DNA of 32,403 nucleotides. Source: Gammaproteobacteria bacterium (GTDB taxonomy: Bacteria; Pseudomonadota; Gammaproteobacteria; Pseudomonadales; Azotimanducaceae). Below the pieces are notes generated by a model, which searched no databases, was not told the origin of the DNA, and saw only the letters and a list, made by a program, of their open reading frames with translations. Positions 57 through 29,871 of this stretch are shown here, piece by piece (the stretch's first letter is position 1; every line of letters begins with the position of its first letter). The stretch is from positions 1 through 32,403 of the forward strand of contig JAPPAV010000051.1 of NCBI GenBank assembly GCA_026705345.1, read 5' to 3'. The position numbers and the translations under genes are program-made.

Positions 57-980
57 CTACTTGGTCGCCGTCAACTCGAAGACGAGGGGTAGAAAGTCCC
101 CGTCGAAGGGCAACCGCCAGAGTCCGTCGTCACCTTGGGTCATTCCGGAGAATTGCTTGTAAAGGGTTGCCGGGTGTTCGGCGAACGACGTAAGACGCAG
201 GCCGGCGCGCAACAGGGCCGTGAGAATCTCCCCGATGCTGTGGTGCCACTCGTGGCAGGGCGACTCGATGGGCTCGTCGCCAGCATAGGACGGTACCCCG
301 CCCGGGAAAGACAAGCCTTCGGGGTTCGGAAAGTAGCCGTAGCGAACCCGAAGATCCCGGCGCGAGTCGAGGGTCGTCTCGTCGTCGAACACTTGGCTCG
401 TCGGATGGATTTCCAGAAGGTAGAAGAGCCCGCCGGGCTTGAGGTGGCGCGCTACCACCTCGGCCCAGCCTTCGAGGTCGGGAAGCCAGGCGAGGACGCC
501 CATCGCCGTGTAGACGATGTCGAATTCATCGTCGAGGACTCGGGTTAGATCGTAGACGTTCGAACGGATGAAGCTGGCATCGAGACCGACCTGGTCGTTC
601 AGGTCCCGGGCGAGCCGGATGGCATCGTCCGAGATGTCGACGCCGGTGGCCTTCGCGCCGAGCCGTGCCCAGGACAGCGTGTCGAGGCCGAAGTGGCATT
701 GCAGGTGGAGAAGCGACTTGCCGCGAACGTCGCCGACCCGGGCGCGTTCATATCGGTTCAGGGTGATCCGGCCGGCCTTGAAGCCGGCTACGTCGTAGAA
801 ATCGGATTTCGCGTGTACCCGCGTGCGCTCGTTCCAATTCGTGCGATTCAGCCCGATACGCGACGCGACCGCTTCGCGGTCGCCCCGGGAATTCGCTGCG
901 CGAATTCTCTCGGCGGCGGGGCGGCGCTGACCGCTAGGCGACAAAGGAGGGTCTTGTTCCATGGAGGGATCCTCGGTCAT
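57..980 (-). CDS. Class I SAM-dependent methyltransferase with an element-derived N-terminal stretch
   Basis: The 307-residue product has a Rossmann methyltransferase core: motif I LHLQCHFGLDTL (about residues 90-101), an acidic ribose-binding GVDISDD, and a post-motif region around DIVYTAMGVLAWL. This fits the general SAM-binding methyltransferases (Methyltransf_11/25 type). The substrate is not recognisable. Conserved similarity seems to begin near LNRTNWNERT (about residue 44), so the first 40 residues are an extension. Residues 24-39 of that extension are encoded by a palindromic repeat shared with the WaaG-like gene far to the right. ATG at 980 is used here. ATG at 962, with a GAGGA 7 bases upstream, is an equally good start. 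The gene follows the YyaL-like gene by 7 bases and is probably the last gene of its operon. Confidence 0.85.
   Translation of the reverse strand: MTEDPSMEQDPPLSPSGQRRPAAERIRAANSRGDREAVASRIGLNRTNWNERTRVHAKSDFYDVAGFKAGRITLNRYERARVGDVRGKSLLHLQCHFGLDTLSWARLGAKATGVDISDDAIRLARDLNDQVGLDASFIRSNVYDLTRVLDDEFDIVYTAMGVLAWLPDLEGWAEVVARHLKPGGLFYLLEIHPTSQVFDDETTLDSRRDLRVRYGYFPNPEGLSFPGGVPSYAGDEPIESPCHEWHHSIGEILTALLRAGLRLTSFAEHPATLYKQFSGMTQGDDGLWRLPFDGDFLPLVFELTATK
865..909 (-). repeat. Double-hairpin palindromic repeat, copy A, inside the methyltransferase gene
   Basis: Two adjacent dyads are seen on the plus strand. The first is gcgaccgc/gcggtcgc (865-872 with 876-883, loop ttc). The second is gggaattcgc/gcgaattctc (887-896 with 900-909, loop tgc, one G-T pair). 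Read on the minus strand the whole unit matches 26955-26999 almost base for base, with 31 of the first 32 positions identical and then a short indel in the second hairpin. Here it is in frame and encodes residues 24-39 of the methyltransferase. The shape is like REP or RPE-type intragenic palindromes. The family is not identified. Confidence 0.85.
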
Positions 981-17055: not shown

Positions 17056-18732
17056 CTAGAGGTATTTGTCCGTGACCGCACCTTCCGACGCCGAGGACAC
17101 GAGCTTGGCGTACTTTGCCAAGGTACCGTACTGGGTGTAGGCCTCGGGGCGTTGCCAGCGCTGGCGGCGGCCCGCGAGTTCGCCCTCGTCGACCTCCAGG
17201 TTGATCTCCCGTCGTTCTGCGTCCACGGTTATGGTGTCGCCGTCCTCCACAAGGGCGATGGGACCGGCTTCGAACGCCTCCGGCGTGACGTGGCCGATCA
17301 CGAAGCCGTGCGAACCGCCGGAGAACCGCCCGTCGGTGATGAGTGCCACCTCCGACGACAGGCCGCGACCGTTGATGGCGCTGGTCGGGCTCAGCATCTC
17401 TCGCATGCCGGGACCGCCCTTGGGGCCCTCGTAGCGGATGACTACAACGTCGCCGGCCCGCACCGTGCCGTCCATGATCGCGGCCATGCCGGCTTCCTCG
17501 CCGTGGAAGACCCGTGCCGTGCCCGTGAAGTGGAGTCCTTCGTGGCCGGTGATCTTCGCCACGGCGCCTTCCGGGGCGAGGTTTCCGCGCAGGATCACCA
17601 GGTGTCCGTCCGGCTTGATGGGGTCGTCCAGGGGCCGAATGATCCGCTGGCCCTCGGGGTAGGGATCAATGTCGGCGAGATTCTCGGCGAGGGTTTTGCC
17701 GGTCACCGTCAGGCAGTCGCCGTGCAGGAGGCCGGCATCGAGCAACGTCTTCATCAGGGGCTGTATGCCGCCGATGTCGATGAGTTCCGACATTGCGTAG
17801 TTGCCCGCGGGACGCATGTCCGCGAGCACCGGCACGCGGCGGCCGATCCGTGTGAAGTCGTCGATGGAGAGCGGAACACCGGCGGAGTGGGCGATCGCCA
17901 GGAGGTGAAGCACGGCGTTCGTCGAACCTTCCAGCGCCGTTGCAACCGCGATCGCGTTCTCGAATGCCTCCATGCACAGGATGTCGGAGGGCTTGATGCC
18001 GCGGCCCACCAAACGTGCCACCGCGGCACCGGCATCGTGCGCGTCGCGTCGCTTGTTCTCGCTGACGGCTTCCTGGGCGGACGAGTTGGGCAGGGACAGC
18101 CCCATCGCCTCGATCGCCGACGCCATGGTATTGGCGGTGTACATGCCGGCGCAGGAACCCGGTCCGGGAATCGCAGTCTGTTCGACGGCCAGCAGTTCCT
18201 CGTCGCTGACCGTGCCCGCGGCGTGTCCGCCCACGGCCTCGAATACCGAGATGATGTCCCGACGTTCGGCACCCGTCTGGATCGTACCCCCGTAAACGAA
18301 GACGCTCGGCCGGTCCAGGCGCGCCATGGCCATGGCGCACGCCGGCATGTTCTTGTCGCAGCCGCCGATGGCGACGAAGCCGTCGAATCCCTGCGCGCCG
18401 ACCACGGTCTCGATGGAGTCGGCGATCACCTCCCGGGACACCAGGGAGTAGCGCATCCCGGGGGTGCCCATGGAAATCCCGTCGGAGACGGTGACGGTAT
18501 TGAAGACGACGCTCTTTGCGCCCGCCTCGTCGGCGCCGAACGCCGCGGCGCGCGCGAGTTCGTCGATGTGCATGTTGCACGGCGTCACCATCGACCAGGT
18601 CGACGCGATGCCGACCTGCGGTTTGGCGAAATCTTCGCGCTTGAAGCCGACCGGGTAGAGCATGGCGCGGCTCGGAGCCTGCTCGACGCCGTCGACGACG
18701 ATGGAGGAATAGGGGCGATTGGTGTCGGTCAT
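17056..18732 (-). CDS. ilvD: Dihydroxy-acid dehydratase
   Basis: Third common step of isoleucine/valine synthesis: dehydrates 2,3-dihydroxy-3-methyl acids to 2-oxo acids using an Fe-S cluster. The frame is open to 18999, but homology starts at [20 protein letters not shown] (ATG 18732), giving 558 residues, the usual size of the shorter IlvD class. The cluster cysteines are in [18 protein letters not shown] and [29 protein letters not shown] near the C-terminus is also typical. The start overlaps the argA stop as TGATG. ilvE lies about 3.7 kb away on the other strand. Confidence 0.96.
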
Positions 18733-19958
18733 CAATTCAGTTCTTTGACAAGGACGAGGGAGTTCCGGCGGTAGTTGTACAGGGCTTTGCGGTCGACGGG
18801 AAGCGCATCGACGGAGGTCTTTGCGAAGCCGTGCTCGAGGAACCAATCGGCGGCCTGGGTGGTGAGGGCGAACAATCGGCGCACGGCGGACGCGCGCGCA
18901 GCTTGTTCGACGGATTCGAGCAGCCGCGGACCGACGGCGTCGCCCCCGACTAGGCAGGCGAGTTCCGCCGCGTCGGCGTCGAGGGGAAACAGCGCACAAC
19001 AGCCGGTGAGCGCACCATCGAGCTCGGCGACGAAGAAACTGTCGATCCCGCGCTCGACAAGATCCGCCGGTCGGGTTGCCAAGGCACCGGACGCTTCAAG
19101 CGGTCGCATGAGCTCGGCGATCGCGCTAGCGTCGGCGGGCACGGCACGGCGGATCACCCGATAGTCGCCGTCGCCCACTTGTGTACCCGCGCCTTCGGCG
19201 GTGAACAGTTCCCTGAGCAGTACGCCGTCGTCGTCGAAACCGATCAGGTGGGCGCGGGGCACGCCGCGTCGGCAGGCGTCGTCGAGGGCGTCGACCCGGC
19301 GTGCCGTGCGGGCATCGTGCTCCCAACCGGCTCGCACCTGCGCCAACTCGCGGGTGTTGAGATCGCTCCGATCCGCTATGCGCCCGACGGCGTCGTAGAC
19401 GATCAGCTTGTCCGCACCGAGGTCGCCGGCCACGTGCGCGGCCAGCGGTTCCACGCGGAGCGCATAGGTGGCTCCGGTGGTGCCGTAGCCCACGGGCGAG
19501 ATCAATACGACGCTATCGGCGCCCAGCAGGTCGCGGATAACGTCGACATGAACGCGTCGCACCGTGCCGGCGGCCAGTTGGTCGATACCGTCGACGACAC
19601 CGATCGGCCGGGCCGTGACGAGGTTGCCGCCGGCCAACGGGATATGACGGTCGCGCAACGGGCTCAAGGGTATGCCCGTCGTGAACAGCGACTCCAGCTT
19701 CGACCGGGCCATCGCAACGGCGGCTTGGATGTCTCCGAGATGGCCCGAATTCACCGGTCCGTCGGATTCGACATCCGCGCCGTGCACGACGACCAGTCGT
19801 ACGCCGAGAACGTGCAGCAGGGCCAGGTCGTGGACGATGTTGACGGCGTTGTCGGAGTCCAGCGCATCGGCTCCGAGCATCACCACGAACGTGCGACCGC
19901 TGTGGGCGCGAATATAGGGGGTGGACGCGCGGAACCAGCGCGCGTAGGTCTCGTTCAT
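18732..19958 (-). CDS. argA: N-acetylglutamate synthase ArgA, with divergent ligand sites
   Basis: Acetylates glutamate, the first step of arginine synthesis. The 408 residues follow the Pseudomonas/E. coli ArgA plan: an amino-acid-kinase-like domain (TPYIRAHSGRTFVVMLGADAL, VNIVHDLALLHVLGVRLVVVHG, GNLVTARPIGVVDG, LISPVGYGTTG, DLGADKLIVYD) and a GNAT domain from about residue 265 (YRVIRRAVPADA, LTTQAADWFLEHGF, YNYRRNS). After VVHG the segment with the usual G-x-R-I-T-D motif is about 16 residues short and the motif is absent. The acetyl-CoA loop (R/Q-x2-G-x-G) reads GGDAVGPRLL. ATG 19958 fits the family N-terminus; ATG 19973 is possible. It lies 94 bases after argE. Confidence 0.88.
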   Translation of the reverse strand: MNETYARWFRASTPYIRAHSGRTFVVMLGADALDSDNAVNIVHDLALLHVLGVRLVVVHGADVESDGPVNSGHLGDIQAAVAMARSKLESLFTTGIPLSPLRDRHIPLAGGNLVTARPIGVVDGIDQLAAGTVRRVHVDVIRDLLGADSVVLISPVGYGTTGATYALRVEPLAAHVAGDLGADKLIVYDAVGRIADRSDLNTRELAQVRAGWEHDARTARRVDALDDACRRGVPRAHLIGFDDDGVLLRELFTAEGAGTQVGDGDYRVIRRAVPADASAIAELMRPLEASGALATRPADLVERGIDSFFVAELDGALTGCCALFPLDADAAELACLVGGDAVGPRLLESVEQAARASAVRRLFALTTQAADWFLEHGFAKTSVDALPVDRKALYNYRRNSLVLVKELN

Positions 19959-20052
19959 GGCTAGCGGCGGCATTCAGTCCGATAGGAGGCACAGAACAAT
20001 ACGTCATCCCAAGTACGACGGAACCAACAACGATGCAAGGGGGACACGGAAA

Positions 20053-22476: not shown

Positions 22477-23412
22477 ATGGCCCAAGACTCCCTCGACGAT
22501 CGCGACGGTTGGATCTGGCAGGACGGTGAACTCGTTCCCTGGCGCGACGCCCGGGTACACGTCCTCACCTACACGCTGCACTACGGCATCGGCGTGTTCG
22601 AGGGCGTGCGGGCCTACGATACCTCGGCGGGCACATCCATTTTCCGGCTTGGCGACCACACCCGGCGGCTGATGGACTCCGCGCAGATCGTGCAGATCGA
22701 CGTGCCCTATTCGCAAGACGAACTGGAAACTGCGCAATGCGAGGTCTTCGCGGCCAACGAGTTGCGCGAGGGCTACCTTCGCCCGGTCGTCTACCTGGGT
22801 TCGGAGAGCATGGGTCTGCGCGCCAAGGACTTGAGCGTGCGCGTCGCCATCGCCTGCTGGGCTTGGCCCAACTACATGGACCCCGAAGCCCGTGAACGCG
22901 GCATCGCCGTGCGCACATCGTCCTATACGCGCCATCACGTCAACATCACGATGTGCAAGGCCAAGGCGAGCGGCAACTACATCAACTCGATCCTGGCTTT
23001 GCGTGAAGCCCAGGACGCGGGTTGCGACGAGGCGCTCCTGCTCGACAACGAAGGCTACGTCGCCGAGGGTACCGGCGAGAACATCTTCGTGGTCAAGAAC
23101 GGCACGATCCACACGCCGGAACTCACCTCCTGTCTACCCGGAATCACCCGGGACACGATCCTGGTGTTCGCCCGCGAGCAGGGCATCGACGTTGTCGAAC
23201 GGCGCATTACCCGGGACGAGGTCTATATCGCCGACGAGGCGTTCTTCACCGGAACCGCGGCGGAAGTGCTGCCGATCCGCGAACTCGATGGCCGTGTCAT
23301 CGCCGGCGGCCAACGGGGTCCGGTCACCGAGAAGCTACAATCGCTCTACTTCGATCAGGTCCGGGGACGGCGCGAGGCGCATCCGGAATGGCATACGCCG
23401 GTCAGCATGTAG
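22477..23412 (+). CDS. ilvE: Branched-chain amino acid aminotransferase
   Basis: PLP enzyme (fold type IV) that interconverts branched-chain amino acids and 2-oxo acids. ATG 22477 gives 311 residues, the usual length, beginning just before DGWIWQDGELVPWRDARVHV. Typical blocks are THTLHYG-like TYTLHYGIGVFEGVRAY, RLGDHTRRL, LRPVVYLGS, MCKAKASGNYINSILA (PLP lysine region), EALLLDNEGYVAEGTGENIF, LPGITRDTI and ADEAFFTGTAAEV. As in Pseudomonas, it stands directly before waaF. Its last 25 bases overlap the waaF start, so the LPS genes may be translated from the ilvE transcript. Confidence 0.96.
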   Translation: MAQDSLDDRDGWIWQDGELVPWRDARVHVLTYTLHYGIGVFEGVRAYDTSAGTSIFRLGDHTRRLMDSAQIVQIDVPYSQDELETAQCEVFAANELREGYLRPVVYLGSESMGLRAKDLSVRVAIACWAWPNYMDPEARERGIAVRTSSYTRHHVNITMCKAKASGNYINSILALREAQDAGCDEALLLDNEGYVAEGTGENIFVVKNGTIHTPELTSCLPGITRDTILVFAREQGIDVVERRITRDEVYIADEAFFTGTAAEVLPIRELDGRVIAGGQRGPVTEKLQSLYFDQVRGRREAHPEWHTPVSM

Positions 23413-24407
23413 GCGCGGCCGCGGCGAAGGTTCTCGTAGTCGCCCCCGCGTGGGTGGGGGACATGGTCATGGCGCACACGCTGGTGCCGGGCCTCGTCCG
23501 TCGCGGTGCCGTGGTCGAGTTTCTGGCACCGCCCGCCACTGGCGATCTCGCGCGGCGAATGCCCGGGGTCTCAGCGGTGCACGACTTGAACGTGGAGCAT
23601 GGGACACTGGGTTTCCGCGAACGGGCGGATGCGGCAAGAAGGCTTAAGGCGCGAGGGTTCGACTGGGCGATTGTCCTGCCGAACTCCCTCAAGTCGGCGA
23701 TCGCGCCTTTCCTTGCCGGCATTCCCCGTCGAACGGGTTTCATCGGCGAGTTGCGTTACGGACTGCTCAACGACAGACGCCAACTCGACACCGGGAATCT
23801 GCCTCGGCTGGTGGACCGGTTCGCATCCCTTGCCGATGTGGCGCCCGAAAGTCCCCGACTGCAACCTGACACCTCCAGGCGCGAGGCGCTATGCGCGGAG
23901 CATGGTTTCCGGCTGGAACACACCCTGATCGCGCTTTGTCCCGGCGCGGAATACGGATCGTCGAAGCGTTGGCCCGCCGAACGGTTCGCCGAACTGGCGA
24001 GACTGCTGGCCTCGCAAGGTGCCGTGGTCTGCATCTTGGGAAATGCACAGGACGTCGAATTGGGCCGGTCGATCGTGCGACGTTCACCGGCGGTCGACCT
24101 AACGGGGAAGACGGATCTCCTGGACGCCGTGGATATTCTCTCGGCAGCCGGCGCGGCGGTTGCCAACGACTCCGGTCTGATGCATGTCGCGGCCGCGCTC
24201 GGCGTGCCCGTTGCCGGCATCTACGGTTCCACGACGCCCACTTTCACGCCGCCTTTGTCGACCCGGTCCTTGGCCATTGGCCACGATCTACCCTGCCGGC
24301 CGTGCTTCAGGCGCGAATGTCCTTTCGGTCATCGGGCATGCCTCACCAACACCTCGGCGGATCGCGTGATGGGTGCCTTGGACGCGCTCGGTGTCGTCTG
24401 GTCGTGA
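23388..24407 (+). CDS. waaF: ADP-heptose:LPS heptosyltransferase II
   Basis: GT9 enzyme that adds the second L-glycero-D-manno-heptose to the LPS inner core at the cytoplasmic side of the inner membrane. The product has 339 residues. Family blocks are VLVVAPAWVGDMVMAHTL, VLPNSLKSAIAPFLAGIPRR, LCPGAEYGSSKRWPAERF, NDSGLMHVAAALGVPVAGIYG, TPTFTPPL and a late Cys-rich CRPCFRRECPFGH. ATG 23388 adds about 13 residues before the conserved start and overlaps ilvE by 25 bases. No nearer ATG or GTG exists before VLVVAP. The stop overlaps the waaC GTG as GTGA. Confidence 0.95.
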   Translation: MAYAGQHVGAAAAKVLVVAPAWVGDMVMAHTLVPGLVRRGAVVEFLAPPATGDLARRMPGVSAVHDLNVEHGTLGFRERADAARRLKARGFDWAIVLPNSLKSAIAPFLAGIPRRTGFIGELRYGLLNDRRQLDTGNLPRLVDRFASLADVAPESPRLQPDTSRREALCAEHGFRLEHTLIALCPGAEYGSSKRWPAERFAELARLLASQGAVVCILGNAQDVELGRSIVRRSPAVDLTGKTDLLDAVDILSAAGAAVANDSGLMHVAAALGVPVAGIYGSTTPTFTPPLSTRSLAIGHDLPCRPCFRRECPFGHRACLTNTSADRVMGALDALGVVWS

Positions 24408-25459
24408 ACGTCTTGCTGGTCAAGATGTCGTCCCTGGGCGACATCGTGCACACGCTGCCAGCCCTCGACGACGCGGTTCGCCACGGGGTGCGCTTCGACT
24501 GGGTCGTCGAGGAGAACTACCGGGGGGTGCCGGCCCGGGTCCCGGGTGTGGGCCGGGTACTCGAAGTCGCCTTTCGCCGTTGGCGTGGAGCGCCGATCAC
24601 TTTCCGGAATGAACTTGCGGCGTTCCGAAGACGCCTTCGGGCGTGTCGCTATGACATGGTCGTGGACGCGCAGGGCTTGCTGAAGAGTGCGGTGGTGGGC
24701 TCGTGGGCGAAGGCCGAGGAACGGGTGGGGTTCAACGCGGCGAGCGCCCGTGAGCGAGGGGCTACGCTGGCCTACCACCGTGGAATAGCGGTGCCAAGGG
24801 ATTGGCACGCCATCGACCGAACACGCCGACTATTCGCGCACGCCCTGGGTTATGACCTTGCCGATAGCGAACCTGCCTTCGGCCTCGACGTTGCGGGCAC
24901 CGACGGGGGAACCATCGCCGACCAGTCCCTGGTGCTCGCCCATGGAACGACCTGGCGTACCAAACACTGGCCGGAGCCGTTCTGGTCGGCCCTCGCCCGG
25001 CTTGCGACCGAGGGAGGTCTCGTTCCGGTGTTGCCGTGGGTGCCGGGGGAGCGGGGTCGGGCGGAACGCATTGCCGCCGCCGTACCCGGTGCGCGCGTCT
25101 GTCCGCCCATGGACTTGGACGCGGTGATGCGATTGCTCGCGGTTTGTCGTGGCATCGTCGGAGTCGATAGTGGCCTCGCGCATCTCGGTGCAGCCATGGG
25201 CCGGCCGACGGTCATGTTGTTCGGACCCTCCGACCCGGCCCTAACGGGATGCCGTGGAACATTCGTCCGCAATCTGGCGGCTTCGATGGCCTGTTCGCCT
25301 TGCGCGTCGAGACGATGTCGTCTGACGAGTCAGGCTCGCGAGCAGCGACAGGCCAGTCGGTGGGCGCCCCCCTGCCTTGAGGCCGTGGGACCGGCCGACG
25401 CTTGGGCCGCCCTGACCGATCTGGTTTCTCGTCAACGCCGACAGGATGCGGGATCGTAG
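24404..25459 (+). CDS. waaC: ADP-heptose:LPS heptosyltransferase I
   Basis: GT9 enzyme that adds the first heptose to Kdo of the LPS core. The GTG start 24404 overlaps the waaF stop; the N-terminus MNVLLVKMSSLGDIVHTLPAL is diagnostic for WaaC. The product has 351 residues. Further blocks are WVVEENYRGVPARVPGV, DMVVDAQGLLKSAVV, LAHGTTWRTKHWP and GVDSGLAHLGAAMGRPTVMLFG with a late TGCRG. The last 30 residues are Arg/Ala-rich and variable. The next gene starts 13 bases after the stop. Confidence 0.95.
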   Translation: MNVLLVKMSSLGDIVHTLPALDDAVRHGVRFDWVVEENYRGVPARVPGVGRVLEVAFRRWRGAPITFRNELAAFRRRLRACRYDMVVDAQGLLKSAVVGSWAKAEERVGFNAASARERGATLAYHRGIAVPRDWHAIDRTRRLFAHALGYDLADSEPAFGLDVAGTDGGTIADQSLVLAHGTTWRTKHWPEPFWSALARLATEGGLVPVLPWVPGERGRAERIAAAVPGARVCPPMDLDAVMRLLAVCRGIVGVDSGLAHLGAAMGRPTVMLFGPSDPALTGCRGTFVRNLAASMACSPCASRRCRLTSQAREQRQASRWAPPCLEAVGPADAWAALTDLVSRQRRQDAGS

Positions 25460-25472
25460 AGCTGGCTGGAAA

Positions 25473-27656
25473 ATGCACGTCGCGTTCACGATCTTCAAAT
25501 TCTTTCCCCATGGGGGTTCGGCCCGGGATTTGGCGAAGATCGCTGCCCGCTGCCGGGAACGGGGACACCAGGTGAGAATCTACGCCCTCGAATGGGAAGG
25601 CCCCGATATGCCGGGCACCCAGCGCGTCGTCATGCCGGCGCGCGGCATCCGCAGCCATGTTCGCCAACGCCGGTTCGCCGATCGGGTCGCCGATCATGTC
25701 GCGGCCCATCCGGTCGACCTCCTAGTGGGTATGAACAAGATGCCGGGTCTCGACGTCTACTACGCTGCCGATTCCTGTTTCGAGGACAAGGCAAGGATCC
25801 AGCGCCCGTGCATTTACCGCCTGACGAACCGGTACCGCCACTACGCCGAATTCGAGCGGACCGTGTTCGCGCCGGACTCCCCCACGCGCATCCTCACGAT
25901 CGCGCCGGGCCAGCAGGCCGCGTTCACGACCGTCTATGGCACCCCGTCGTACCGTTTCCACTCGCTGCCACCGGGAATCGAGCGGGACCGGGGCGCGGCT
26001 ACGGTCGAGGCTGGCCGTGCCATTAGGCGCGAATTCGGCGTGGGCGACACGGAGATCCTGCTCCTGTTCGTGGGATCGGGATTCGTCAAGAAGGGACTCG
26101 ACCGGGTTCTTCGCGGCGTGGCCGCCTTGGCTTCCCCGGTCCGGGACCGGGTACGTCTTTTCGTGGTCGGCGACGACAAGGCAGAGCGATTTCAGCGTTT
26201 GGCGCGTCGCTTGCGGATCGCCGCGCGGGTCCGGTTCGTCGGTGGTCGGGACGACGTGGCGGCGTGGCTCCAGGCGGCGGACGCACTAGCTTTGCCGGCC
26301 TACGACGAAGCCGCGGGGATGGTGATCCTCGAAGCCGCCAGTGCCGGGGTGCCGGTGGTGGCGACGGCGAACTGCGGCTACGCCGCGTTCATCCGGGAAG
26401 CCAAGGCGGGAATCGTCACTCCCGTGCCGTTCGATCAGGCACGGTTCAACGCCGACCTCGAACGACTGCTCACCGTGGACGAACGCGAACTCATGTCCCG
26501 GAGAGGTCGGGAACTGGCGGCGAACGAGTCCCTCCACGCCATGCCGTCCCGGGCGGTCGAGGTGCTCGAGACTGTCGCCGCCGGGGGCGAGCCACCCGTG
26601 GTTTCCTTTTGCGCTCTCGAGTATTCGAAGACCGATCCGAGGTATCGATCCCTCGCGCCGGTTGCCCAGGCGTGCCGTCGCCGTGGCTTAGACGTTCAGG
26701 TCTTCGTGGTCGATCGGCGCGCGCCGCTGCCGGAGGGCGTTGACGTGGTTGTCGTACCGGCAACCGCGGTTGGCCAAAGCAGGCGGCGGGCCAGACGCCG
26801 CGAATGGGTGGCGAAGTCGTTGGGTTCGAGCCGGCCAGGACCCGTGGTGGGATTCGAGGCCCAGGGCGGCATCAACATTCGCTTCGGGTGGGAACCGACC
26901 CCCGAACCCAATCACGGGAAGGCCGGAAAGGCATCGCCTGTTACATCGCGCCGGGAGAATTCGCGCAGCGAATTCTCGGGGCGACGGCGAAGTCGCGTCC
27001 TCGACGGACTGCCGCCGGGACTCGGACCGGCGCCAACGCCACCGCAGGGATCCCGTGAAGTCGTGCGTGCCCAGTTCGGTTTCTGCGAGGAGGATGTCGT
27101 CTTTGCGATGGCGGGCAACGACCTCGTCTCGCGTGGGTTCGAGCGCCTGTTCATGGCGCTCGGGAGGTTGCCGGTGGCGCTTCGCGGTCGTTGCGCAGTG
27201 CTGGCTGCTGGCCGACCGGGCCTTCGCCTTGGGGGTGCCGAGCGTGTATTCGAGCTTGACCGTCGGCTGCGGTTCGACAGCGACCTGTCGCCCCTGGATG
27301 CCATCGAAGCGGCGGACGCGTTCGTGGATCTCCCCTACCGGCGATCCTCGAGTGGTTGGATATTCGATGCGCTGGCTGCCGGGCGGCCGGTGGTGACCCA
27401 CGCCGCGGTCCCCGAGTCCGGGCTGGTACGCGATGCGTGCGCCGGCGTGGTGCTGGCGTCGCCGTTTCCCCAGGGTGACCTCAGCCGGGCTCTCGTGTTT
27501 TTGCTGGGCTCGCCGGACAAGCGGGCCGAATGGTCGGCCAATGCCGCGGAGTTCGCATCGGGCCGCGAACACTTCGGCCAGGCGGAGGCCGCGGCGGCGG
27601 CCATCGAACAATATGCGCGCGGGAGGAGCGGTCATGCAGAGTCTCTATTTGCGTGA
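25473..27656 (+). CDS. waaG: Fused double WaaG-type glycosyltransferase (LPS core)
   Basis: Residues 1-370 match WaaG, the GT4 enzyme that adds the first outer-core hexose to heptose II: MHVAFTIFKFFPHGGSARDL, GMNKMPGLDVYYAADSCF, RYRHYAEFERTVF, SLPPGIERDR, VGSGFVKKGLDR, and E279-x7-E287 in DEAAGMVILEA. Residues 375-727 are a second, degenerate WaaG-like unit: VSFCALEYSKTDPR, GFEAQGGINIRF, LDGLPPGLG, AGNDLVSRGFER and SSSGWIFDALAAGRPVV, where both glutamates are lost. Most of the segment between INIRF and LPPG is missing and holds palindromic repeat copy B. ATG 25473 fits WaaG; ATG 25446 overlaps waaC. Single-domain WaaG has about 375 residues. The first half is likely active. Confidence 0.9.
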   Translation: MHVAFTIFKFFPHGGSARDLAKIAARCRERGHQVRIYALEWEGPDMPGTQRVVMPARGIRSHVRQRRFADRVADHVAAHPVDLLVGMNKMPGLDVYYAADSCFEDKARIQRPCIYRLTNRYRHYAEFERTVFAPDSPTRILTIAPGQQAAFTTVYGTPSYRFHSLPPGIERDRGAATVEAGRAIRREFGVGDTEILLLFVGSGFVKKGLDRVLRGVAALASPVRDRVRLFVVGDDKAERFQRLARRLRIAARVRFVGGRDDVAAWLQAADALALPAYDEAAGMVILEAASAGVPVVATANCGYAAFIREAKAGIVTPVPFDQARFNADLERLLTVDERELMSRRGRELAANESLHAMPSRAVEVLETVAAGGEPPVVSFCALEYSKTDPRYRSLAPVAQACRRRGLDVQVFVVDRRAPLPEGVDVVVVPATAVGQSRRRARRREWVAKSLGSSRPGPVVGFEAQGGINIRFGWEPTPEPNHGKAGKASPVTSRRENSRSEFSGRRRSRVLDGLPPGLGPAPTPPQGSREVVRAQFGFCEEDVVFAMAGNDLVSRGFERLFMALGRLPVALRGRCAVLAAGRPGLRLGGAERVFELDRRLRFDSDLSPLDAIEAADAFVDLPYRRSSSGWIFDALAAGRPVVTHAAVPESGLVRDACAGVVLASPFPQGDLSRALVFLLGSPDKRAEWSANAAEFASGREHFGQAEAAAAAIEQYARGRSGHAESLFA
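26955..26999 (+). repeat. Double-hairpin palindromic repeat, copy B, inside the waaG fusion gene
   Basis: A perfect 10-bp dyad gagaattcgc/gcgaattctc (26955-26964 with 26968-26977, loop gca) is followed by a smaller one, gcgac/gtcgc (26981-26985 with 26992-26996). The unit is nearly identical to the reverse complement of 865-909, differing by one substitution in the first 32 positions and a short indel in the second hairpin. It is in frame and encodes about residues 495-509 (ENSRSEFSGRRRSRV) in the linker of the degenerate second glycosyltransferase unit. Confidence 0.85.
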
Positions 27657-29871
27657 CGATCTCGAGGCGGCGGTGCGGACCGGCGAGTCGGGGGCGCGGG
27701 GGGACGATAGCGTGTTCTCGGCGTTGTCGGCGGTGGAGGGCGAGGTCTATCGCCGCTCCGCCCGCCGGTGCACGTCACGCGTAGTGATCGCGGGCAAGAC
27801 CTACTTCGCGAAGATTCACGAGGGCGTCGGGTGGCGCGAGATCGCGAAAAACGTGCTAGCCGGAAAACGACCGGTACTCGGTGCGCGGCACGACTTCGAA
27901 GCCAGCCGGCGACTGTGTGCACGGGGCGTGGCGGTGCCCGGTGTGGCCGCCTTTGGAGAGCACGGCGTCAGTCCGGCTCGCCGCCGCTCCTTCGCAATCC
28001 ACGACGCATTGGACGGTTTTCGGAGCTTGGAGGACGTGGGAAACGGCTGGCTGGTGACCCCTCCGCCCGTCAAGTCAAAGCGAGCCGTGCTGGCCGAGGC
28101 GGGGCGGCTGACCGCGGCGATGCATGCGGCGGGGGTTTGCCACCGGGACTACTACGCGTGTCACCTCATGGCCGACGCGGCCAAGTTGGCGCACGGGGAG
28201 GCGGAACTCGCGGTGATCGACCTGCACCGCGCGGAAGTTCATCGCCGTCTCTCAAGGCGTGCCCGGGTGCGGGACCTCGGCGCATTGCTGTATTCGACGT
28301 TCGGGATGCCGCTCACCGAACGCGACCGATTGCGTTTCGTGGCGGCCTATGCGGGGACGACCGGTGCCGTCGAGTTGCGCCGCCGTGGTCCTTTTTGGCG
28401 CGCCGTGCTGCGCCGAGCGGAACGTCTCCATGCGCGTGCCGTTGCCGGTGGCGTGGCGACGGGTGCGGAAACACTCGTCGGCACCGGGATTGCCTCGGTT
28501 GGGCGCCTAGCGGATCTGGATCGCGATCCGCCGCTGCCCTTTCGGTTCGACGTGACGCTGGGCAAGGGCGGTGTGCGAGCGATTTGCACGGCGGTACTTC
28601 GTGCCCAACCGGGTCGACGGTTGGTCTTGCGCGCAGTCGTTGACGGTCGGGAAGTGATCTTAAAAGCGTTCTTCGGACCTCACGGTAGTCGCGACTCGAC
28701 GCGCGAACACCGCGGCGTGAAAGCCCTGCGCGAGTCGGGCGTGGCGACTCCCGAACTGCTCGGGAGTGGTCGGGGCGGTGCGGCGCGCATCCTCGCGTTC
28801 GAGTTGCTCGAGGATGCCCGCGAACCGTCGGTCGGAGACGTTGGGAAATTGCTCGCCACGCTGGCGCGAATGCACCGCAGCGGCATCCGGCAACGCGACC
28901 TGCACCCGGGAAACTTCCTCGTCTCCGGAAGGCGCCTTTTGGCGATCGACGGCGGCGGCGTCGCGGTGTCGAAGACGGTGGGTCGTGCTAGCCGCCTGGC
29001 CGACGTGGTCCGCCTGCTCGCCCACTACCCGAGCGACACCCTGGGTTCCCTTGCACCACTTGCGGCCGCCTATGAAGATGCCGCCGGCGTAGCTTTGCCC
29101 AACCGGCCGTCGGGCGATCTCTACGACCGTGTGGCGTCAGCGCGGCGGCATCGTCTGGCCAAGTTCATGGCCAAGGCGAGTCGCGAGTGCACCGCCTTCT
29201 CGGTACGCGAGGAACCCCGCCGCCGGATCGTTGTGGAGAGGGGCGACGACGATCCTCAACTGATGGACATCGTTGCCGACCCGGATCGTGCGGTGTCGTC
29301 GAGCGAGCCGTTGAAACGGGGCAACACGGCCGTGACGGTCCGGTGCGGCAACTTCGTGGTCAAGCGGTACAACGTGAAGGATTCGTGGCATCGCCACCGC
29401 CTGCGGTGGCGGCGCACCCGGGCGCTCAATGCCTGGCGCGCGGGCCACGGACTGCGGTTCGCCGGCTTGGCGACGCCGCGGCCGCGCGCCTTGATCGAAA
29501 TGCGTAGCCCGCAAGTCGGCGAGGCCGTGGCATTCCTTGTCGTCGACCATGTCGACGGGGAGCGGCTCGACGGGGCTGTTGATGGTGCTAATGTCGATCC
29601 GGATTTGAACGGCGCGTTAGCGCGACTGTTCGGCGCGTGGCGGGAACTTCGTTTCGAGCACGGCGACACGAAGGCGAGCAACTTCGTCGTCAAGCATGGC
29701 GAGATCTACGTCCTGGATCTGGACGCTGCCGTTTTTCACCGCGGTGGACGGCGTTTCGCCCGGGCCCATCGGCGCGAGCGCATGCGGTTCCTCGCCAACT
29801 GGCCGGACGCGCCCGTAGCGCTTCGAGACGCCGTCACTGCCGAACCAGGTCTCGGCGAGGAGTGCGCTTGA
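27634..29871 (+). CDS. waaP: Three-domain LPS core kinase (WaaP plus two further kinase domains)
   Basis: The 745-residue protein holds three kinase-like domains. Domain 1 (1-270) is WaaP/RfaP, the heptose I kinase: GEVYRRSARRCTSR, K60 in YFAKIHEGVGWREIAKN, RPVLGARHDFEA, HRD (170-172) in CHRDYYACH, and D196 in IDLHRAE. Domain 2 (about 285-515) has K344 in VILKAFF, QRDLHPGNF (D422, N427) and D439 in AIDGGG. Domain 3 (about 530-745) has K577 in FVVKRYN, EHGDTKASNF (D678, N683) and VLDLD (D695). All three keep the ATP-lysine, catalytic Asp and metal ligands. Pseudomonas encodes several core kinases as separate genes here (waaP, wapP, wapQ, PA5006), so this looks like a fusion. ATG 27634 has GGGAGGAG upstream and overlaps waaG by 23 bases. 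Confidence 0.9.
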   Translation: MQSLYLRDDLEAAVRTGESGARGDDSVFSALSAVEGEVYRRSARRCTSRVVIAGKTYFAKIHEGVGWREIAKNVLAGKRPVLGARHDFEASRRLCARGVAVPGVAAFGEHGVSPARRRSFAIHDALDGFRSLEDVGNGWLVTPPPVKSKRAVLAEAGRLTAAMHAAGVCHRDYYACHLMADAAKLAHGEAELAVIDLHRAEVHRRLSRRARVRDLGALLYSTFGMPLTERDRLRFVAAYAGTTGAVELRRRGPFWRAVLRRAERLHARAVAGGVATGAETLVGTGIASVGRLADLDRDPPLPFRFDVTLGKGGVRAICTAVLRAQPGRRLVLRAVVDGREVILKAFFGPHGSRDSTREHRGVKALRESGVATPELLGSGRGGAARILAFELLEDAREPSVGDVGKLLATLARMHRSGIRQRDLHPGNFLVSGRRLLAIDGGGVAVSKTVGRASRLADVVRLLAHYPSDTLGSLAPLAAAYEDAAGVALPNRPSGDLYDRVASARRHRLAKFMAKASRECTAFSVREEPRRRIVVERGDDDPQLMDIVADPDRAVSSSEPLKRGNTAVTVRCGNFVVKRYNVKDSWHRHRLRWRRTRALNAWRAGHGLRFAGLATPRPRALIEMRSPQVGEAVAFLVVDHVDGERLDGAVDGANVDPDLNGALARLFGAWRELRFEHGDTKASNFVVKHGEIYVLDLDAAVFHRGGRRFARAHRRERMRFLANWPDAPVALRDAVTAEPGLGEECA

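Follow-up and report, generated by a model that had tools for sequence, protein, structure and literature searches.

A palindromic sequence found in two unrelated genes of a 32,403-nt stretch of gammaproteobacterial DNA (the window) belongs to a repeat that is specific to one group of uncultured gammaproteobacteria and is dispersed through their genomes. We read it, with a probability of about 0.87, as a palindromic repeat of the REP/RPE kind (RPE, Rickettsia palindromic element), specific to this lineage and non-autonomous, that usually lies beside genes and is sometimes tolerated inside them. Since other bacteria have repeats that behave alike, it is a new repeat family of a known kind; no published description of the family was found among the matches listed from the open-access literature.

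One window copy lies on the minus strand, in the N-terminal coding part of a SAM-methyltransferase gene (57-980, minus strand). A sequence-only reading of this DNA had placed it at 865-909, whereas the inserted segment is a long form of 106 nt at 861-966, with ends that are approximate rather than placed to the exact base, and the net gain over orthologues is 105 nt (35 codons). The two-hairpin core of this copy is recognised at 859-912 (minus strand) by covariance model R2 (76 bits, E 1.8e-18), the palindrome of hairpin 1, GAATTCGC-GCA-GCGAATTC, occupies 889-907 on the same strand, and the predicted insert peptide, SMEQDPPLSPSGQRRPAAERIRAANSRGDREAVAS, stands between MTEDP and RIGLNR. The other core, at 26952-27002 on the plus strand (R2, 62.2 bits, E 2.0e-14), sits in the poorly conserved interdomain linker of a waaG-like gene for a two-domain glycosyltransferase (25446-27656, plus strand); its hairpin 1 palindrome was located by a pattern search of the window at 26957-26975 (plus strand), and 3 nt are missing from its hairpin 2. 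The unit reported earlier in these two genes is real: the arms at 872-915 and 26949-26992 match at 93% over 44 nt, and both copies lie in open frames and are read in different frames, as had been said. With up to three mismatches the hairpin 1 palindrome occurs in the window only at these two places, giving 4 strand-wise matches against 0.03 expected from 100 shuffles, and the exact palindrome with a free loop has 7 sites in the whole genome (5,072,030 bases in 151 contigs) against 0 for a reversed control. These counts rule out a chance repeat.

Aligned copies define a core of 54 nt with two adjacent hairpins, GAGAATTCGC-nnn-GCGAATTCTC and GCGACCGC-GAA-GCGGTCGC, followed by GT(C/T). The two consecutive hairpins proposed from the window are supported by covariation in 20 copies from the window's genome: 93.1% of cells in the hairpins pair, compared with 90.3% after shuffling, two-sided changes occur in 4 of 18 pairs (1.3 shuffled), and 8 cells have changed on both sides (1.6 shuffled), figures that come from related copies and from a structure drawn from the same copies. 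Compensatory variants in the hairpins include GAGATTTCGC/GCGAAATCTC.

At E <= 1e-8, the genome that contains the window (G000; 5.07 Mb) has 22 copies matched by R2. The expectation of many genomic copies is thus borne out, although the density guessed from the window was too high, two copies per 32 kb being a local excess. Across the genus there are 230 copies in 11 of 16 genomes at the same threshold, a count that rests on at most 150 scored candidates per genome and in a few cases may include a copy twice, through an antisense match; the other ten genomes with copies hold 53, 34, 32, 26, 20, 18, 10, 8, 6 and 1, and five of the 16 hold none. Outside the genus, 1-2 weak matches were seen in 2 of 22 genomes of the family and order (best E 4.2e-4 and 1.2e-4), and in a sample of the class, scored with 15 candidates per genome and stricter filters, the window's own genome alone matched (1 of 369, E <= 1e-6). 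Carriage by phage or plasmid was rejected, since the 105-nt consensus matched nothing among plasmids and phages and a 30-nt stretch of the element had no exact match in IMG/VR.

The element appears to have been mobile, as we infer from filled and empty versions of the same gene sites. In the methyltransferase, G000 reads MTEDP-(35 residues)-RIGLNRTNWNER, and G003 and G004 read TEDPRIGLNRANWNER. The insert is absent from the DNA of G003, G004 and G006 and from the proteins of G009 and G011; it is present in G002 in a version 9 codons (27 nt) shorter, with the frame kept. In a protein comparison where 5 of 32 loci gave no row, with DNA compared for five genomes, relatives of this enzyme, including distant ones, lack the insert residues, except in G002, among the matches listed. 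As a separate matter, the seven best relatives of the methyltransferase (57-980) are Gammaproteobacteria or Pseudomonadales MAGs and those that follow are mostly Chloroflexota MAGs, which hints at gene transfer. The waaG core is found in G000 and G002, survives as a half remnant in G003 and is absent in G004 and G006. A gene that we call an oxidoreductase by eye, with weak Pfam matches to TPP_enzyme_C and Transketolase_C, carries a net 60-nt in-frame insert in G000 relative to G002, G003 and G004; diverged or decayed relatives of the insert occur in G006 and G011 and none in G012 and G013, in a comparison where 9 of 22 loci gave no row. A single insertion passed down a simple tree would not give this distribution; losses, recombination or repeated insertion are needed. 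In G008, a DUF1365 gene has a net 93-nt in-frame insert within a single PF07103 match, absent in G007 and G004. The sequence-only reading had pointed to orthologues without the insert as the proper comparison, and at these four gene sites (methyltransferase, waaG, oxidoreductase and DUF1365) such orthologues exist and the inserts keep the frame.

Other sites add to this picture. A long form near the C-terminus of a ClC gene is common to G007 and G008, the G007 copy missing 27 nt relative to that of G008 (hairpin 1 plus four bases) with the frame kept; an insert-free orthologue of this site was not found. In G002, an insert at the start of an ABC-transporter gene (5' end) splits a stretch that runs uninterrupted, or almost so, in G000, G003 and G004; read by eye, the gene's original frame hits a stop within the insert, and translation could restart from an ATG at the insert's right end. 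The 3' end of a further gene also has filled and empty versions. A MITE of a DDE transposase would show terminal inverted repeats and a target-site duplication. Inspection by eye of the empty sites gave no clean or consistent target-site duplication; CATG stands at both ends of many long forms, and the adjoining bases vary independently. At another site in G000 (L044; C99:142438-142491), the flanks lie close together in G000 and are separated by about 1.3 kb in G003 and G002, which would fit a deletion that came with the element.

Where do copies lie with respect to genes? We examined 159 copies in 144 loci, which represent 112 sites grouped by flank similarity with one copy per site, so that sites with a shared repeated flank may be merged. 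The loci are a non-random set: 120 are the best-scoring rows of the genome search, with several rows, mostly near contig ends, left out, and 24 are from the window's own genome, including two weak matches (E 2.0e-6 and 1.2e-5). Six sites are internal to genes, two of them doubtful (L264 and L317), 5 are C-terminal, 12 are near a called start, 57 lie within 60 nt of a gene end, and 32 fall into the class that our own gene caller, a codon-usage script, labels unresolved. The 12 near-start sites are ambiguous because the true start may be downstream, and the waaG site is not among the internal ones because its representative copy (L255, from G002) was not called in a gene. Compared by eye with the list of open reading frames, the caller overlooked genes of the window, at about 23000-24400, 27433-29871 and 18732-19973 (minus strand), and the site classes and stop-adjacency counts are therefore approximate. 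The insertion in genes seen in the window is thus real at several sites, but it concerns a minority of them (of 112, 6 internal and 5 C-terminal). Unrelated genes read this DNA in different frames and on different strands, and the predicted insert peptides arise from several frames; the wider search that had been proposed turned up many more copies, in the genome and in the genus, inside and outside genes. Neither finding that would have spoken against a spreading element, a lack of further copies or the same residues in distant orthologues, was made, the latter among the matches listed for the methyltransferase. With copies dispersed and orthologues free of the insert, the proposal of an RPE-like element that adds peptide to proteins holds, the peptide being a predicted one.

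At 21 sites a called stop codon touches the element, and all 21 have one orientation, with the GCGACCGC hairpin nearest the stop; where the stop is 1-60 nt away, both orientations occur equally often (7 sites each). By eye, the C-termini at stop-touching sites look native for several housekeeping proteins, including ones that resemble the C-termini of GroEL, RpsO, RpoB and MetK. Such an arrangement, together with the sites that are common to several species, lends some weight to the view that most copies are functional RNA elements, selected after stops as terminators or as stabilisers of mRNA 3' ends, with intragenic copies as rare by-products. This view is compatible with the repeat reading given above, and we hold it as a genuine though minority possibility: Rfam gave no match at the gathering threshold in seven sources, copy number within the genus runs from 0 to 53 over 16 genomes, and many of the 112 sites lie at the start of a gene or within one, or belong to the unresolved class. 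All five called C-terminal tails read in the same direction as the stop-touching sites, and such tails could come from loss of a stop adjoining the element. At L048, L307 and L323 the element adjoins sequence that by eye resembles a tRNA 3' half, and ARAGORN finds no tRNA there.

The core is often preceded by a 5' arm of about 50 nt, making up the long form, which a crude pattern applied to the upstream 75 nt finds at about half of the sites (50 of 112). The arm starts near CTTCCATGGAACAAA, and the folded consensus has two further hairpins there. Used as a query, the 105-nt consensus gave 44 matches at E <= 10, five of which span nearly the whole query. Copies also occur in tandem, 57-66 nt from start to start at L256, L286, L309, L313 and L343 and about 105 nt at L303 and L322; at L309, four copies with 57-nt spacing follow one another in frame at the C-terminus of what by eye is like a transport substrate-binding protein. 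These seven loci, the right flank of the long form, kept as TCGCATG or TTCCATG at 48 sites, and the presence of other modules that end in CTCGCATGG or similar would fit long composite units made by tandem duplication and recombination of palindromic modules with a CATG joint, rather than transposition of one element. We consider this doubtful, since identical units occur at different sites of one genome and dispersal is then needed, local duplication alone being insufficient. Eleven cores at different places are identical over all 54 nt (8 in G008, 2 in G009 and 1 in G002), which argues for recent dispersal. The waaG orthologues of G008, G009 and G002 are 56, 54 and 80% identical to that of the window, so the identity of the cores suggests recent sharing or homogenisation; bin contamination is a possible source of these identical cores. 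Two observations on module structure stand apart: at L264, L265 and L043, other palindromic modules (e.g. GAGCCTTCAGCCGGGGAGCGCGAGGGGCTTGCCCCTCGCATGG) are chained upstream of the long form and share the CATG joint, and at L064 and L322 additional palindromic sequence lies inside or between the arms of hairpin 2.

What might move the copies? In a classical REP/REPIN system the repeats are mobilised by a genome-encoded RAYT (Y1/HUH tyrosine transposase), and G000 has five matches to PF01797 (Y1 transposase). The location right after stops also resembles that of REPs as described in PMC3733652. Against such a system, a survey of draft assemblies that covered 14 of the genus's 19 Y1_Tnp matches, with up to 1.5 kb of flank on each or less where a contig ended, gave no match to the element at E <= 0.1, and two copy-rich genomes, G001 (81% complete; 34 copies) and G006 (20 copies), have no Y1_Tnp match. 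The GTAG tag, which in GTAG-tagged REPs stands unpaired beside the stem, is found, as CTAC within 14 nt on the 3' side of the hairpin, in just 7 of 112 sites. Mobilisation by a RAYT was thus searched for and is unsupported, and we regard the classical system as unlikely here; the analysis linked the element to no transposase and to no known repeat family. Y1-transposase-like fragments were seen at contig ends (G000:C10:11-136 and G000:C123:11-124), as if repeated copies had broken the assembly. That the shared sequence is ancestral coding sequence or a convergent peptide, with no insertion at all, could appeal to the open frames of both window copies, but it is refuted by empty sites in orthologues and outgroups and by identical DNA in different frames and strands of unrelated genes, and its probability is close to nil.

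On the preferred reading of a non-autonomous repeat, copies would be dispersed in trans by a process akin to transposition. The majority would settle next to genes, often immediately behind a stop codon and with the GCGACCGC hairpin closest to it, where they would be harmless or might serve as hairpins of the mRNA 3' end. The GC-rich, mostly stop-free sequence would allow inserts divisible by three in linkers, termini and loops to survive as extra peptide, and selection would remove the remaining insertions. Openness of frame need not be a special design, a notion that we rejected because shuffled sequences are nearly as open: all six frames of the core consensus are open, which holds for 62.6% of its shuffles too; the long-form consensus has 5 open frames, a number reached by 64.5% of its shuffles; and 57 of 112 sites are fully open compared with 39% of shuffles, a mild excess. 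Openness in six frames is thus mostly a matter of base composition. More speculative, and in our estimate improbable, is an undescribed mobilisation system that would copy palindromic modules to two preferred places, after stops in a fixed orientation, and at CATG joints where modules chain and may bring a new start codon; if it existed, it would systematically supply proteins with new starts, tails and internal peptides.

The repeat adds a case outside Rickettsia of palindromic repeats turned into (predicted) protein sequence. Within the genus, one gene can be compared with the insert, without it and with part of it deleted, which allows one to ask directly which insertions are tolerated, how the frame survives decay, and why such a large number of copies lie just behind stops in a single orientation.

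REPINs are paired hairpins, dispersed, with copy number differing between genomes. The present repeat is similar in all three respects, and it is unlike the REPIN/RAYT system in that its two hairpins have different sequences, rather than being one REP in two inverted copies, and in having no linked RAYT. With the REPs of the GTAG and CGTC super-families, as characterised in PMC3733652, it shares short hairpins often just downstream of open reading frames, some intragenic copies and a copy number that varies among relatives. It departs from them in that its unit is a double hairpin, neither tag is present in the expected form, and no association with RAYTs was found; the Y1_Tnp matches surveyed lack the flanking repeats of GTAG-REPs and REPINs. 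The same paper gives the CGTC-tagged REP an unpaired CGTC at one end, an 8-9 bp stem starting A-T, a 4-5 nt loop and a CCA tail (PMC3733652). Here, 84 of the 112 sites end in CGTC on the 3' side, yet its first C is the last base of the stem, the first pair of the stem GCGACCGC is G-C, and the loop is 3 nt long. Like ERIC, Correia/NEMIS, YPAL and RUP, the element is a small non-autonomous repeat, and several of those have open frames fused to genes; according to PMC2229807, all four have target-site duplications, three have terminal inverted repeats and TA ends, and empty-site evidence exists for YPAL. Unlike these, our element had no clear target-site duplication, terminal inverted repeats or TA ends that we could find, and no Rfam match in the seven sources.

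The kinship with RPEs is one of kind: a palindromic family with in-frame inserts in unrelated genes that are absent from orthologues. RPEs have no known enzyme. CGTC repeats are likewise without a linked transposase, RPE-4 and RPE-6 are themselves CGTC repeats, and REPs can be intragenic, with REP ends supplying stop codons (PMC3733652). RPEs are described as long stem-loops of 105-146 or about 150 bp with terminal inverted repeats (PMC10969869, PMC2229807). Unlike RPEs so described, the present element has a 54-nt two-hairpin core with an optional arm, resides in GC-rich gammaproteobacteria and has most of its sites outside genes; like them, it is a small palindromic repeat of one genus, found in frame in unrelated genes as well as between genes.
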